Below are positions 7,206 through 41,582 of a stretch of DNA of 41,821 nucleotides, piece by piece. Both the position numbers and the translations under genes were made by a program. Position 1 is the first letter of the stretch; every line of letters starts with the position of its first letter. Source of the DNA: a virus; the IMG/VR virus record IMGVR_UViG_3300008738_000499, positions 1-41,821 of that record; one strand, given 5' to 3'. The notes below the pieces were generated by a model that saw only the letters and a list, made by a program, of their open reading frames with translations, was not told where the DNA came from and ran no database searches.

Positions 7206-9721
7206 AGGCACCCCCTCATGGCGGCCAGGGCCGCGTCTTCATCGTCCAGCTGCAGCATCAGCTGTTCCGGCGTCACCGTGCGCTGCGCATCGACCGCGAA
7301 CGGCACGGCCTGCCACTGCCCGGCATCCACACTGGCGGCCACGTCATGGGTGAAGCTGTCCGCCTGCGCCTTGGTCTCGGCCGCTGCAGGATCGATATAC
7401 CGCTGCACCATGGCCTCGGGCATGGGTGCCACCTGGGTTTCCTGCGCATTTCGCGCGGCGGCAAGCGCTTCCTTTATCGTCGCTGGCTCGGTTCGCTTTG
7501 CGATCGTCAGCGGGCCGAGATCGCCCTGTTTGCCGCGCCACTTCATGATGCGGTCAAAGTGCTCATCCAGCACGCCCGCGCGCTGTGCCATTTCGGCCGC
7601 TGCGCGGCGCACACCGGCATAGCTGCCCGCCAAGCGCACCTGATCGCCCAGGCGCAATTCCCATGCCTGGGCCGGCTTGCCGATCACCGCATCGGCCGCC
7701 GCCATTTGCGCATCGCTTGGATCAGCACCGCGTCGGGCATCATCCACGTGGCCTTGCGCAGACCGCCAATCTTCTTCACTGGCAAACTGGTCCCGCCGCA
7801 GCATCGGCTGCTCTTGATCCACCGGTGCGCGGCTGCGCCGGATTTCCGTTAAGCGCGCCGCCTCTTGCGCGCTCAACTCGAAATTGAATGTGAACCCGCG
7901 CGCGGCATTTTGATCCGGCCAATCAGCATTGTTCACGCGTGGATCGTTGGCCGGCAAGTCGGTGTAGTGAAGCGGCAGATCGCTGCGATAATCCGATGCG
8001 TACTGGCGATCGGTGCTCACCCAACGCCCGGTTTCACCATCGCCGATTGCGCCGCTGTGATACACGCGGATCATGTTATCGGCCAAAGGCGGTTCCTCGA
8101 TCGCCGCCGGCGTCGCTGCCTCGTTGTCCAGGTCAAGATCGCGTTGCGCCGCCATGCGCTCGGCTTCAACCTGCGCCCGTTCTGTCTCGAGCGCCGCCAG
8201 CATCTGATCATCGCCCGCGCCGATCGCGGCAGGCGCATCGATCGCGCCGCGCTCCTGCCCCATGCGCTCGCGCGCCCAGGACACGAAATCGCCCACCGTC
8301 ATCCCCTTCATGTAGGGGTTCACGTCGATGATCTTTTCCGAAAGCAGCGATGACAGCGGCGTATCGGGTGCGGCGCGCAGCACTTTGGGACCGTCGCCAG
8401 TGCCCAGATGATGCATGATATAGAGGTTCGCCGGGTCCACCTCGGCGCCGATCCGCTGCAGCCGCGCCGCATTGTCTTCGGTCAGGCGCCGCATCAGGCT
8501 TTCCTGCAACGCCGCATCGCCTTTCAGCGCCAGGATCGCGCCATCGCTCAACCCTGTCTTGGGAAACGCCGCGCGATAGGTGCCGATCCACGTCTGGTTG
8601 GTAAAGCCATACAGGCCCGATGCCGTCTGCCCGGGCATCGGGTTGCGTGCATTGGGGTTGCCACCGCTTTCGCTTTTGCGCACCGCAGCCAGATAGCTGT
8701 CCACCGCGCCACCCTGCGCCAGGCGCTGCGGCGTCACCATGCGCGGTCCCGGCGCGGCCGGGTCAACGATGCGCCGCTGCGCCGCATCGACCAGGCTGAA
8801 ATGCGCATCTTCGCCGGCGCTGCCCGGCTCGAACGGGTTCTTGGCCGCCAGATCGGCATCGCGGTCGATCACCGCCAGCGCGGCCGCCTGGTCGGGCGTG
8901 CGCAGTTGTTCAGGCACAGCCTTGGCAAAGGCCTTGGCAATTTCCATGGGGGAGCGGGCTTCAGGGTTCCCGATCGCCGATTTGCCCGCGCGCCATCCCG
9001 CGCCGATCGCCCGCGCCATGCCGCCGGCCGCCGCGCCAAATAGAAACGCGGTGCCCACGTTCTGCGCCAGATCGCCGGCGCTGGTTTGCTCGCCCAGGCG
9101 CGCCCGCGCGTTCATTGTCGCCGGCGTTTCCACCGCCGCGATCCCGGCATTCGCAAGGCCATCGGCCAGAATGGCGCGGCCGGCGGAAAGCTCTGCCCCG
9201 GCACCCCCAGTCGCAATCGCCAGCCCGGTCATATAGGGATCGGTAAAGCCCGCAGCCAACCCGCCAATCAAGCGTGAACTCGCGCTGCCCTGGCCAGCCA
9301 CGATCATATCGCGCTGGCGCTGTCCATCGCGTGTCAGGGCCCGATTTTCAAATGTGGCCCGATCGGTCGGTACGCCAGCAGGTAGCTTGCCCAGCTTGGA
9401 CAACCGATTGATATCGTCCCACAGCGCATCATAGTCGGTGTTATCGGGGCCACCCAGCGGGTTGACCATTTTCAGGATCGATTGATACGCAAAGAACCGT
9501 GATTTCCCTGTCGCATCGGCCATCGCCGCCAGCACCGGCGCATAGGCGCTTTGCAGCCGCACATCCTGCATGAACGGCACTTCGTCCACCGCAACGGCCG
9601 TGGCGGCTTTCGTGCTGTCCCACCAGCCTTGCGATTTCACGGCATCCAGATCGGAACCCGGCGCCTTTGGGCGCATCTGCGGTTCGTCCGGGCTGGTCTG
9701 GACAACGGATAGAACGCTCAT
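7202..9721 (-). CDS. Internal virion protein with lytic transglycosylase domain (839 aa)
   Basis: Expected to be carried in the capsid and to open peptidoglycan during DNA ejection. Residues about 338-440 form a transglycosylase-like (SLT) domain: VRKSESGGNPNARN with probable catalytic Glu351, then ASGLYGFTNQTW, and later NLYIMHHLGTGDGPKVL. T7 gp16 carries a comparable domain. Hydrophobic glycine-rich stretches at about 150-245 may interact with membrane. Residues 510-535 are coiled-coil-like. From 550 a separate region, IRVYHSGAIGDGETGRWVST, looks like the beginning of an ADP-ribosyltransferase-type fold (see findings). ATGA overlap links the gene to its upstream neighbour (9718-9721). Confidence 0.85.
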   Translation of the reverse strand: MSVLSVVQTSPDEPQMRPKAPGSDLDAVKSQGWWDSTKAATAVAVDEVPFMQDVRLQSAYAPVLAAMADATGKSRFFAYQSILKMVNPLGGPDNTDYDALWDDINRLSKLGKLPAGVPTDRATFENRALTRDGQRQRDMIVAGQGSASSRLIGGLAAGFTDPYMTGLAIATGGAGAELSAGRAILADGLANAGIAAVETPATMNARARLGEQTSAGDLAQNVGTAFLFGAAAGGMARAIGAGWRAGKSAIGNPEARSPMEIAKAFAKAVPEQLRTPDQAAALAVIDRDADLAAKNPFEPGSAGEDAHFSLVDAAQRRIVDPAAPGPRMVTPQRLAQGGAVDSYLAAVRKSESGGNPNARNPMPGQTASGLYGFTNQTWIGTYRAAFPKTGLSDGAILALKGDAALQESLMRRLTEDNAARLQRIGAEVDPANLYIMHHLGTGDGPKVLRAAPDTPLSSLLSEKIIDVNPYMKGMTVGDFVSWARERMGQERGAIDAPAAIGAGDDQMLAALETERAQVEAERMAAQRDLDLDNEAATPAAIEEPPLADNMIRVYHSGAIGDGETGRWVSTDRQYASDYRSDLPLHYTDLPANDPRVNNADWPDQNAARGFTFNFELSAQEAARLTEIRRSRAPVDQEQPMLRRDQFASEEDWRSAQGHVDDARRGADPSDAQMAAADAVIGKPAQAWELRLGDQVRLAGSYAGVRRAAAEMAQRAGVLDEHFDRIMKWRGKQGDLGPLTIAKRTEPATIKEALAAARNAQETQVAPMPEAMVQRYIDPAAAETKAQADSFTHDVAASVDAGQWQAVPFAVDAQRTVTPEQLMLQLDDEDAALAAMRGCL

Positions 9722-23424: not shown

Positions 23425-23774
23425 TCGCCGTTCAGCCTGACAGGCTTACGCCGCAGGCCGATTTGCCCAGCATTTCCAAGGCATTGCGCCATGCCTTCCA
23501 ACATGACCATTCCAACACGCCCCGATGCGGCGCCCGAAACCCGCAGAAATCCGCCATTCCGCCCAGCCCGCACGATCGCGGCCGCACCGCCGATCGCGCG
23601 CCCGGCCGCCAGGCCGAAAACCCCAAAAGTTTCGCCGCCCCTCCCCCGCATCACACTGCTGGGCAGCACCTGGCGCGCATCGATCGAGCCCCGGTGCAGC
23701 GCGGTGCGATATCCGCCCGCCAGAATATTCCCGGCGCGGGCGCCAGATCGGCCTATCGAGCCACCGCACGGCGC

Positions 23775-24023
23775 CAGTTGCAGCTGCAACTGCGCTGCAA
23801 CTGAACTGCAACCAACAACATACTGATATGTAAGAATAAATATGGATGGTTGCAGAGTTGCAGCGTCACACGCGCACATGTGCACGTGTGTGCGCGCACA
23901 TACGCACACGTGCGCATCGCGCGTGAGGAGGGCGCGCAACTCTGCAACCGGCAAAAATTGTGTATGAAAAACAAGCGCTTGCCAGTTGCAACGCGGTTGC
24001 ACGGCAGTTGCGCTTGCAACTGG
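23775..24023. repeat. Cluster of GTTGCA/TGCAAC motifs: candidate origin or packaging site
   Basis: An 18-bp perfect palindrome, CAGTTGCAGCTGCAACTG, stands at 23775-23792. Further TGCAAC or GTTGCA copies are at 23796, 23807, 23849, 23857, 23943, 23985, 23996 and 24015. The copies at 23796/23807 and 23849/23857 face each other around an AT-rich patch (23813-23848) that contrasts with the surrounding GC-rich DNA. A second inverted repeat, CCAGTTGCAA (23982-23991) with TTGCAACTGG (24014-24023), closes the cluster. Such iterated dyads beside an AT-rich stretch suggest an initiator-binding origin, or a terminase-recognition site given the neighbouring gene. Confidence 0.6.
23866..23925. repeat. Alternating purine-pyrimidine tract
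   Basis: About 60 bases made almost wholly of CA, TG, CG and GC steps, including the palindromes GCACATGTGC and TGTGCGCGCACA. Such tracts can adopt Z-DNA or cruciform structures under negative supercoiling. It lies inside the motif cluster, between its AT-rich patch and the right-hand dyad. Confidence 0.6.
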
Positions 24024-24363
24024 CACCCCGGACCCATTGGCATCGTCCAGCTGGCGCGCCAACCTTATCGCACGGCCAACGGGCCGGGGCAAGGACGAAG
24101 CCAGGGACAGGGCGCGAATCGCCACGCCATGCACACCGCAGCGGGCCGGGGTGAGACAGAGCGAACGGCCGCGCACCGCGACGCCTGCGGCGCCGCTGCG
24201 GCCGTGCGTAGGCGCCACCGGCAACGGCGCGCCAGGCACATCACACGGCGCTAGGTGGCTGAAATGCAGGCGATTGCGCACCGCACTTGCCCGCTTGGCG
24301 CGGGCGCGTGCTGCAATCGCACGCAGGCTCAAGGACGCGCCGAAAATTTTTCCCCGATCCATA

Positions 24364-24392: not shown

Positions 24393-24567
24393 AGACCGTC
24401 CGAAAGCCCCGGCCAGGCTCTTGCCGATGGTCGGAAAGAGCAAGGATTGACTTCGCACGTCGCGATCGGCATCTTCCACGGTGCCTGGCGAGAGCCGGGC
24501 CGGGGTTGCAGTCCCGAGCACGACGCGCGCATCAAGCGCCATGGCCTTCCCATAGGCGCTTTTCCTA

Positions 24568-24646
24568 TGGTCGGGCGTGGTGAGGGGCGAGCAATCGCCA
24601 CCGTGTGCGCGTTCCACGGTACTGCAAACCTCGTCACGTCCGGCCA
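24568..24646 (+). ncRNA. C4-type antisense RNA, copy 1
   Basis: Closing stem TGGTCGG (24568-24574) with CCGGCCA (24640-24646, one G-U pair). Inner hairpin 1 is GGCGA-GCAA-TCGCC (24586-24599). Inner hairpin 2 is CCGTG-N9-CACGG (24601-24619). This is the cloverleaf layout of the C4 RNA of phages P1, P7 and P22, which represses antirepressor translation. The segment TACTGCA (24620-24626) can pair with TGCAGTG (24654-24660), and GCGTT in the loop of hairpin 2 with AACGC (24684-24688) just before the antirepressor ATG. Compared with copy 2 the stems differ in sequence but keep pairing. A reading frame runs through it in phase with the antirepressor, as in the icd/Ash leader region of related phages, but no start is convincing. 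Confidence 0.75.
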
Positions 24647-24689
24647 CCAGCGATGCAGTGCTGTTGGCCCTGAGAGAGGCAGCAACGCA

Positions 24690-25178
24690 ATGAACAATCT
24701 GATTTGCTTCGATTTTGCTGAACACTCGGTCCGTGTGATCGAGCGCGGCAACGATCCATGGTTCGTGGCAACCGATGTCGCTGCGGTTCTCGGATACGGT
24801 CGCGCGCCCGATATGGTTCGCATGCTCGATGACGACGAAAAGGGTGTGCACGATCTGCACACCCCTGGCGGCCAACAGCAGGCCACCATCATCTCCGAGA
24901 GCGGCCTCTACGCCTGCATCCTGCGCAGCCAGCGCCCCGAGGCGCGCGCGTTTCGCAAGTGGGTGACCAGTGAAGTCCTGCCCGCGATCCGCAAGACCGG
25001 CACTTACACCGTCGATCCCGACGTGCTGGCCTTCATCGCCGGCCGCGAGGAACTGACCGTGGCTGAATTCTTCGCCGCGCATCCCAACCGCGAGGACAGC
25101 TCCGAAACGCGCCGCGCCGTCGCGCGCGATCTGCGCCGCCAGGGCTTTGTGCGCGTCTATCGCCGGCGGGAGGCATGA
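24690..25178 (+). CDS. Antirepressor 1, BRO-N domain protein (162 aa)
   Basis: The N-terminal 105 residues are a BRO-N domain: PWFVATDVAAVLGYGRAPD, MLDDDEKGV, IISESGLYACILRSQRPEA and FRKWVTSEVLPAIRKTG are all family hallmarks. The C-terminal 55 residues (ELTVAEFFAAHPNRED, then a basic RDLRRQGFVRVYRRREA) look like a small winged helix-turn-helix. Proteins of this type in C4-controlled loci inactivate the phage repressor and promote lytic growth. The ATG lies ten bases after GAGAGG and directly follows the C4 RNA, whose sequence can pair around the start. The paralogue at 40845 shares the N-terminal domain but has a different C-terminus. Confidence 0.88.
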   Translation: MNNLICFDFAEHSVRVIERGNDPWFVATDVAAVLGYGRAPDMVRMLDDDEKGVHDLHTPGGQQQATIISESGLYACILRSQRPEARAFRKWVTSEVLPAIRKTGTYTVDPDVLAFIAGREELTVAEFFAAHPNREDSSETRRAVARDLRRQGFVRVYRRREA

Positions 25179-29545: not shown

Positions 29546-29770
29546 CTACGCCGCCTCTTGGCGATCGACGAAGAAATCATCCGCCGCCACCGCGCCGGCC
29601 GTCAGGCTCATCAGCGCGCGGATATGTTCGGCTCGGGGGATGACGGTTCCGCGCTCCCACTGGTGCCACGTGCGGCGGGCTACGTTCATGCGCTTGGCGG
29701 CAGCGGCCTGAGACAGACCATGCTGCCGGCGCCAATTGCGCAGCTTGTAGGTGATCGTCTGGCTGGTCAT
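29546..29770 (-). CDS. Cro-like XRE-family regulator (74 aa)
   Basis: A single HTH domain fills the protein: LRNWRRQHGLSQAAAAKRMN (about 10-29) followed by ARRTWHQWERG (recognition helix about 31-41). It is divergent from the CI-like gene and heads the leftward replication operon, the usual place of Cro. The ATG (29768-29770) has no good ribosome-binding site. A plausible leftward promoter would start transcription at or within a few bases of the ATG, suggesting a leaderless mRNA. Operator O1 lies in the promoter spacer, giving direct control. Confidence 0.85.
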   Translation of the reverse strand: MTSQTITYKLRNWRRQHGLSQAAAAKRMNVARRTWHQWERGTVIPRAEHIRALMSLTAGAVAADDFFVDRQEAA

Positions 29771-29838: not shown

Positions 29839-30216
29839 ATGGGAACGATTGTACCTTTCATCGCGATGGCCGACATGCCCAACCGCGTATTCGAGCTGCG
29901 CCGTGCGCGCGGCCTTTCCCAACAACAGCTTGCCAATCTGGCCGGTTGCTCAAAGATGCACATCTCGGGCGTAGAGCGCGGCACCCGTGATTTTTCGTTC
30001 TCCCTGATGCGCCGCCTGGCTGAGGTGTTCGGCATTCCGATCGCGGAACTGCTATCGCGCGATGACAATCCAGGATTGCTTGCGCTCGAAGAAAAGCAGC
30101 TGCTCGACACATATCGCGCCGCGCCCAAAGAGGATCAGGACAAAATCCTTAAGGTAGCGGAAACCATCGCACCGTTCCGCCACGCGAATGATGACAGCGA
30201 TAGGCATACCGCTTAG
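29839..30216 (+). CDS. CI-like repressor, XRE family (125 aa)
   Basis: The HTH domain is clear: FELRRARGLSQQQLANLAGC, then SKMHISGVERGTRD and a third helix with LAEVFGIPIAELLS. The C-terminal 45 residues (ALEEKQLLDTYRAAPKEDQD) are a short helical oligomerisation-type region seen in compact phage repressors. There is no peptidase (LexA-like) domain, so inactivation by RecA cleavage is unlikely, which fits control by antirepressors. Three starts are possible: 29839, 29866 (MADMPNRV) and 29875. None has a ribosome-binding site, and the predicted transcription start makes the first nearly leaderless. Confidence 0.85.
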   Translation: MGTIVPFIAMADMPNRVFELRRARGLSQQQLANLAGCSKMHISGVERGTRDFSFSLMRRLAEVFGIPIAELLSRDDNPGLLALEEKQLLDTYRAAPKEDQDKILKVAETIAPFRHANDDSDRHTA

Positions 30217-40599: not shown

Positions 40600-40628
40600 T
40601 TGCCCATCGAGTCGGGCAGGACTATAGC
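40600..40628 (+). promoter_or_regulatory. Possible rightward promoter of antirepressor module 2
   Basis: TTGCCC (40600-40605), 17 bases, TATAGC (40623-40628). An inverted repeat TGCCC-N8-GGGCA (40601-40605 and 40614-40618) overlaps it. Position relative to the C4 RNA parallels the promoter of module 1, though closer. Confidence 0.45.
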
Positions 40629-40699
40629 TTGGGCCGCGCAGTAAGTCCTGCGCAGGTGATTGGCGTCACCTATGTCAAAGGCGCGGCCCGCGCCACGAT

Positions 40700-40720
40700 A
40701 CCCGTGTCAGCGGGTTTTCT
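40700..40720 (+). terminator. Intrinsic terminator-like hairpin before C4 copy 2
   Basis: ACCCG (40700-40704), a six-base loop and CGGGT (40711-40715) followed by TTTTCT. A similar position in module 1 (24550-24570) holds CATAGG-loop-CCTATG. The hairpin directly precedes the C4 RNA and may separate it from upstream transcription or be part of processing. Confidence 0.55.
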
Positions 40721-40722
40721 TA

Positions 40723-40799
40723 TGGTCGGGCGCGTTGCGAGCACCTTCGGGTGCGCCGTTTGCCTTTGAACGGTACGCCAATCGTGGCGCGTCCGGCCA
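40723..40799 (+). ncRNA. C4-type antisense RNA, copy 2
   Basis: Closing stem TGGTCGG (40723-40729) with CCGGCCA (40793-40799). Hairpin 1 is GCACC-TTCG-GGTGC (40741-40754). Hairpin 2 is CCGTT-N8-AACGG (40756-40773). Two antisense segments are perfectly complementary to downstream sites: ACGCCAAT (40775-40782) to ATTGGCGT (40805-40812), which is the exposed loop of the hairpin CACCAACA/TGTTGGTG (40798-40819); and GCCTTTGAA (40762-40770) to TTCAAAGGC (40829-40837), which covers the ribosome-binding site of the antirepressor. This is the known logic of C4 RNA in P1 and P22. Confidence 0.88.
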
Positions 40800-40844
40800 C
40801 CAACATTGGCGTGTTGGTGTCGGACCTTTTCAAAGGCGACCGAC

Positions 40845-41582
40845 ATGAGCAGTGCACTGCTATCCTACCAATTCAACGATGAACCTGTCCGCGTCACGAT
40901 GGTCGATGGTGAACCTTGGTTCATTGCAAACGACCTCTGCGCCGTGCTGGATATCCGCAACCCACGGGATGCGGTTTCCGCGCTCGATGATGACGAAGCT
41001 GGTGTCGTCATTACCGACACCAGCGGCCAGCGCCGCGAGATGAAGATCGTATCCGAGAGCGGGATGTATGCGCTGATCTTTCGTTCGCGAAAGCCGGAGG
41101 CCAAGCGGTTCCGCAAGTGGGTGACGGCCGAAGTCCTGCCCTCGATCCGCAAGACCGGCCGCTATGAACTGCCGGGGCTGGAAGAGCCGCCCGTCCAGGC
41201 GCTCGATTTCGATCCCATCCGTCTCTCGGCCGGCGCCAACGTCGTGCGCCTCGCCATGCGCCTCTATGGCCCCGTCGCCGCGCGCCGCCTCTGGCCCCAG
41301 CTCGGCCTGCCCGCCGTCCTGCCCGATGGCGAGGCCGCCCTCGATGGCGATCCCATCGCCGCGCCCCTGCGCGCCTTCCTGGCCGATCGGCAGGAAACCA
41401 CCATCCAGCAGGCCGCCGATGGCATGGGGCTTGTCGATATCGATTGGTCCACCCGCCACCGCATCGGCAAGCTGCTGCACCTCTGGGGCTGGAAGTGCCG
41501 CACCAAGAAGGTCCACCGCCGCGCCGCCCGCGTCTTCACCCGCCCCACCGATGGCGCCGTGATCGAAGGGAGCGCCGCATAA
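40845..41582 (+). CDS. Antirepressor 2, BRO-N domain protein (245 aa)
   Basis: BRO-N domain in residues about 8-110: PWFIANDLCAVLDIRNPRD, ALDDDEAGVV, IVSESGMYALIFRSRKPEA and FRKWVTAEVLPSIRKTG. The C-terminal 125 residues differ from antirepressor 1 and end in a winged-helix-like RIGKLLHLWGWKCRTKKVHR. It probably inactivates the phage repressor or a repressor of another prophage. The ribosome-binding site AAAGG, eight bases before the ATG, lies inside the segment complementary to C4 copy 2, so translation should be blocked while the RNA is made. Confidence 0.88.
   Translation: MSSALLSYQFNDEPVRVTMVDGEPWFIANDLCAVLDIRNPRDAVSALDDDEAGVVITDTSGQRREMKIVSESGMYALIFRSRKPEAKRFRKWVTAEVLPSIRKTGRYELPGLEEPPVQALDFDPIRLSAGANVVRLAMRLYGPVAARRLWPQLGLPAVLPDGEAALDGDPIAAPLRAFLADRQETTIQQAADGMGLVDIDWSTRHRIGKLLHLWGWKCRTKKVHRRAARVFTRPTDGAVIEGSAA

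Follow-up and report, generated by a model that had tools for sequence, protein, structure and literature searches.

A complete C4 immunity module, by its sequence features, ahead of an antirepressor gene in a presumed sphingomonad podovirus

Does the segment in front of an antirepressor gene near the end of this phage sequence encode a C4 antisense RNA, and which sites would such an RNA address? C4 from P1 has been described as a 77-nt product of RNase P, with a b′ segment that covers a ribosome site and an a′ segment that gives specificity (PMC5320573). The window analyzed here is the whole 41.8 kb IMG/VR record in which the locus lies. It contains an integrase gene and tail tubular-type genes; its portal and tail genes match the PHROG head-tail adaptor and tail tubular families, and Burkholderia phage BcepC6B has a TerL similar (29%) to the one predicted here. 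The portal/head-tail adaptor is shared at 100% identity with G006, which carries the same C4-1 (the second C4 RNA of this phage, described below), at 91% with G007, another carrier of two C4s, and at 60% with a Novosphingobium sp. FSW06-99 prophage. The latter match and the PHROG families make plausible the sphingomonad podovirus that a preliminary description had seen in this IMG/VR contig, and a temperate sphingomonad podovirus is a fair reading of the sequence. C4 RNAs are present but uncommon in the sphingomonad order, with at least 6 of 299 sampled genomes carrying one.

The RNA, its two antisense words and their four sites

The features of the locus, hereafter module 2, and of the presumed repressor region are as follows.

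29546–29770 (−) and 29839–30216 (+): divergent helix-turn-helix repressor-like genes
40600–40628 (+): likely promoter of the C4-ant2 operon, TTGCCC-17 nt-TATAGC, read from the sequence
40636–40653 (+): 5′ leader hairpin GCGCAG-TAAGTC-CTGCGC (helix 1), which covaries in 42 aligned leaders
40655–40670 (+): a1 hairpin GGTG-ATTGGCGT-CACC, its loop (40659–40666) complementary to a′
40675–40682 (+): b1 target TCAAAGGC, complementary to b′
40680–40694 (+): possible antiterminator GGCGCG/CGCGCC, 6 bp, sharing the final 3 nt of b1 (p = 0.006 in shuffles of this locus)
40687–40721 (+): G-C-rich, terminator-like hairpin(s), CCCGC...GCGGG or ACCCGT-GTCA-GCGGGT by folding, then a T-run, TTTTCTT; nearly all loci are alike in its position
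40718–40804 (+): C4 antisense RNA of module 2 (C4-2), RF01695
40762–40770 (+): b′ antisense word GCCTTTGAA, loop of hairpin 2
40775–40782 (+): a′ antisense word ACGCCAAT, unpaired linker
40800–40817 (+): a2 target hairpin CCAAC-ATTGGCGT-GTTGG, its loop (40805–40812) complementary to a′
40829–40837 (+): b2 target TTCAAAGGC, covering the Shine-Dalgarno of ant2
40845–41582 (+): ant2, BRO-N antirepressor of 245 aa (PF02498, E=1.3e-24; phrog_130 anti-repressor Ant, E=1.9e-51)

A covariance search of the full window places the Rfam C4 family (RF01695) at 40718–40804 of the + strand, over model positions 1–87, with 67.1 bits and E=4.9e-11, well over the curated cut-off of 45 bits. The minimum-energy fold of 40723–40801 consists of one closing stem, two inner hairpins and an unpaired linker, like the C4 model. 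The preliminary description had proposed a C4 cloverleaf here, with this very search as a check, and both the match and the predicted fold bear it out; its span for the RNA, 40723–40844, does contain the molecule but fuses it with its target. By the offset of the P1 misc_RNA annotation, the mature RNA would comprise about 40724–40801, and the GGT at 40724 is consistent with GGW, the cleavage motif reported for 5′ maturation of C4 (PMC5320573).

Two antisense words had been described, each with one perfect match downstream, and both matches are exact: a′ pairs over 8 nt with the loop of the a2 hairpin, and b′ pairs over 9 nt with TTCAAAGGC at the ant2 ribosome site, where the Shine-Dalgarno AAAGG lies within the target, 8 nt ahead of the ATG at 40845. 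The count of two, in turn, overlooked the upstream copies a1 and b1, which raise the number of perfect target matches to four; exact complementarity to C4-2 extends over 9, 8, 8 and 9 nt at a1, b1, a2 and b2, respectively. On the + strand of the window, ATTGGCGT occurs at 40659 and 40805 only and TCAAAGGC at 40675 and 40830 only, and 300 local shuffles, read on both strands, produced no instance of ATTGGCGT followed by CAAAGGC within 45 nt. Because both target words recur upstream of C4, module 2 has the full P1 layout, a1-b1-C4-a2-b2-ant. The downstream gene, in the same orientation and already described as an antirepressor, is of the BRO-N/Ant kind by PF02498 and phrog_130. Judged by sequence features, of which it has every one that marks the C4 family, module 2 is a genuine and complete C4 immunity module; its processing, the repression it would exert and the role of a1/b1 we infer from work on P1, P4 and Gifsy-1.

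Pairing specificity across loci and within one phage

An exact two-ended C4 pattern scan, from which L042 and L063 were left out for a chance-like or odd C4, yielded 37 stretches from viruses and 24 from genomes; where hosts of the latter are named, they are Alphaproteobacteria, except for one MAG labeled only Proteobacteria. For 51 distinct C4s (50 from the alphaproteobacterial set plus N15), the longest complements of a′ and b′ were sought within 125 nt upstream and 100 nt downstream, with flanks swapped between loci as the control. Matches of at least 7 nt were found at the RNA's own locus in 88% (a1), 90% (b1), 82% (a2) and 90% (b2) of cases, versus 10%, 16%, 9% and 9% with swapped flanks. 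With 6 nt or more demanded at a2 as well as b2, 45 of the 51 C4s match their own sites, and 75 of 2550 cross pairs (3%) match. Between loci the antisense words differ and all four sites change with them, direct evidence that the pairing is under selection.

The same phage carries a second module (module 1).

24506–24512 (+): a1, TTGCAGT, 7 nt complementary to a′ (24621–24627)
24523–24528 (+): b1, ACGCGC, 6 nt
24534–24563 (+): terminator-like hairpin plus T-run, by folding
24563–24651 (+): second C4 RNA (C4-1), RF01695, 52.0 bits
24654–24659 (+): a2, TGCAGT, 6 nt
24684–24688 (+): weak b2, AACGC, 5 nt, between the Shine-Dalgarno and the ATG
24690–25178 (+): ant1, BRO-N antirepressor of 162 aa (PF02498, E=8.5e-24; phrog_130)

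C4-1 matches its own a1, b1, a2 and b2 over 7, 6, 6 and 5 nt, so that b2 pairing in module 1 is weak; with only 5 nt, located between the Shine-Dalgarno and the ATG, translational control may be weaker there than in module 2. The two modules use different antisense words, and C4-2 matches the module 1 sites over 3–5 nt. On the ant1 Shine-Dalgarno, b′ of C4-2 could form 8 pairs, two of them G-U; we do not claim cross-control of ant1 by C4-2, as its a′ has no match to a2 of module 1. In the elements and genomes with several C4s (this window, G007, Haematospirillum and a Novosphingobium MAG), no C4 fits the a and b sites of another together.

Several side observations belong with these loci. The stretch before module 1 has no convincing gene; at 23770–24030 it contains a cluster of GTTGCA/TGCAAC words in direct and inverted repeats, which adjoins alternating GTGCAC/CGCACA tracts and includes 43-nt arms (23770–23812 and 23985–24027) that are 77% complementary. 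These repeats could be operators or an origin. On the minus strand of L033, two C4 RNAs lie about 230 bp apart, at 8587–8668 and 8360–8441; the former has no matching targets nearby and looks decayed, and it may be an orphan or a trans-acting copy. In L006, L015, L022, L038 and L057, the frame after C4 begins unlike BRO-N antirepressors; C4s of alphaproteobacteria may hence also have targets of other kinds.

The leader and the role of the upstream sites

We posit that a single transcript starting near 40635 would carry a1-b1-C4-a2-b2-ant2, and that C4 would be excised from it, as by RNase P in P1, to act in trans on further copies. The linker word a′ would kiss the loop of the a2 hairpin and the loop word b′ would cover the ant2 Shine-Dalgarno, so that the antirepressor would not be translated and lysogeny would hold; the divergent repressor-like genes are probably the Cro/CI-like switch on which the antirepressors would act. 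That 40718–40804 is a C4 antisense RNA repressing ant2 translation is, in our judgment, very probable. Pairing of a′/b′ with a1/b1 may add a second level of control by favoring termination at the T-run hairpin between b1 and C4, and termination at this point would limit transcription of both C4 and ant2. If true, this attenuator would provide feedback on C4 together with a second block on the antirepressor.

Boxes resembling TTG and TATA, 17 nt apart, stand at the equivalent site upstream of many other C4 loci; the promoter at 40600–40628 is weak by consensus, its −35 box being poor, and a consensus promoter scanner made no call there. Pairing of the a1 hairpin holds in 98.8% of cells of the 42-leader alignment, and each of its four pairs shows compensatory changes. 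Applied to the leader as a whole, RNAalifold recovers no more than the 5′ and a1 hairpins, because indels misalign the terminator. The T-run hairpin directly 5′ of C4 is nevertheless near-universal (z<−1.5 in 44 of 51 loci), is followed in most loci by 4–5 T per 8 positions, and has modest covariation despite imperfect alignment. Its 5′ arm can alternatively pair with GGCGC at the 3′ edge of b1 in an antiterminator-like helix, and this overlap of antiterminator and b1 recurs in most loci and in P7 and is readable in P1. Across the 42 leaders, the antiterminator helix has no compensatory changes, its conservation being in sequence only; shuffles of single loci are mostly non-significant, and the combined p of 1.7e-9 comes from related sequences. 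Folding of the module 2 leader further indicates that a 6-bp hairpin ahead of the T-run is compatible with the putative antiterminator, leaving a small terminator hairpin in both states, and a clean two-state switch is thus not evident in this module. We therefore rejected a covariation-proven antiterminator and, given the missing compensatory changes and the coexisting hairpin, put forward attenuation as a hypothesis: for module 2 taken by itself, termination before C4 favored by a1/b1 pairing is suggestive, if somewhat short of probable. We are more tentative still about the general case, in which b1 would enter the antiterminator strand of C4 systems, C4 pairing would shift the RNA to a terminator before C4 for feedback and a second block, and two such modules with non-overlapping a′/b′ words would run independently in one phage.

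The same observations bear on a simpler scheme, in which C4 only covers the ant2 ribosome site, a1/b1 either titrate C4 as a decoy (sponge) or are a leftover duplication, and the T-run hairpin insulates the RNA or aids its processing. The lack of compensatory changes in the antiterminator helix and the small terminator hairpin that forms in both states speak for this scheme, as does Gifsy-1, whose terminated leader IsrK activates the antirepressor mRNA in trans (PMC4825925). Yet a1/b1 fit a′/b′ as strictly as the downstream sites do, they lie at fixed distances from a T-run hairpin found in nearly all loci, and in the N15 record that position carries an annotated, putative Rho-independent terminator; we regard the decoy or duplication as a serious possibility that falls below an even chance. 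That C4-2 is a relic, with a conserved fold and an RNA that is unexpressed or non-functional in this phage, would accord with the poor −35 box and has a precedent in the decayed-looking C4 of L033, but module 2 has four perfect words of 8–9 nt, an unbroken closing stem and an open antirepressor frame, which makes decay quite improbable. Chance alone, which might be invoked because GC-rich sequence easily makes hairpins, is already refuted as a source of both cloverleaf and complementarity by the Rfam E-value, the unique word pairs and the covariation over 51 loci, and we give it practically no weight. Translational repression of ant2 by C4-2, with attenuation as a possible addition, is the reading that we carry forward.

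Relation to known C4 systems

RF01695 scores exceed the cut-off in P1 (68.8 bits), P7 (69.6), N15 (78.8), phiKO2 (71.8), P4 (74.9) and Gifsy-1 (69). C4 had been said to be known from P1, P7 and P22; the first two hold, whereas P22, which has no RF01695 match even at E<=10 and whose ant is controlled by sar RNA (PMC12197685), was named in error. P1 and P7 share with module 2 the RNA family, the order a1-b1-C4-a2-b2-target and a hairpin ending T-rich between b1 and C4; in the P1 record, translational repression is assigned to a2/b2, and a1/b1 are entered as putative targets. They differ in their antisense words and in having one C4 found in each, compared with two modules in this phage, and P1 has icd as first target gene and ant1 after it, whereas C4 of module 2 directly precedes the BRO-N antirepressor. 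N15 and phiKO2 also match RF01695, and N15 has a1/b1 and its annotated putative terminator upstream of C4, but both are linear phage-plasmids of enterobacteria with a target operon of icd and antA.

Two further relatives bring transcription into play. P4 CI RNA (RF01695 match at NC_001609 8420–8507) resembles C4-2 in being a processed RNA with complementary sites on both sides; it pairs with seqA on its upstream side and seqC on its downstream side, and transcription terminates prematurely as a result (PMC4825925). Unlike C4-2, it controls replication genes in this way, with no antirepressor involved. In Gifsy-1 (IsrK/STnc1160/orf45-anrP; match at NC_010392 34131–34214, the RNA downstream of IsrK), a leader with a ATTGGCGT hairpin loop and a T-run hairpin precedes the C4-like RNA and then the antirepressor, as in module 2. 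A Rho-independent terminator closes the IsrK leader; experiments showed that part of transcription reads through it into a stable RNA and the antirepressor operon, and the authors suggested that the stable downstream RNA might modulate the IsrK terminator (PMC4825925); the difference is that terminated IsrK activates the antirepressor via the small frame orf45. With P4 and Gifsy-1 over the cut-off, three separately described systems are tied into one RNA family. The a1/b1 leader itself matches no Rfam family. A conserved motif tied to C4, c4-a1b1, is listed by Weinberg et al. (2010, PMC2864571) for gammaproteobacteria and phages; presumably, the 5′ and a1 hairpins of the present leaders represent this motif in alphaproteobacteria.

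C4 of the P1 and N15 type is thus already known, and what is added here is the upstream a1/b1 pair, a second independent module and a comparative specificity code. At the level of sequence, alphaproteobacterial phages possess the whole of a P1-style C4 immunity switch. A two-word specificity code is defined by some 50 naturally varying sets of the four target sites, and this collection makes testable both the role of the upstream a1/b1 copy, still “putative” in the P1 record, and the reason why some phages keep two C4-antirepressor pairs that do not match each other.
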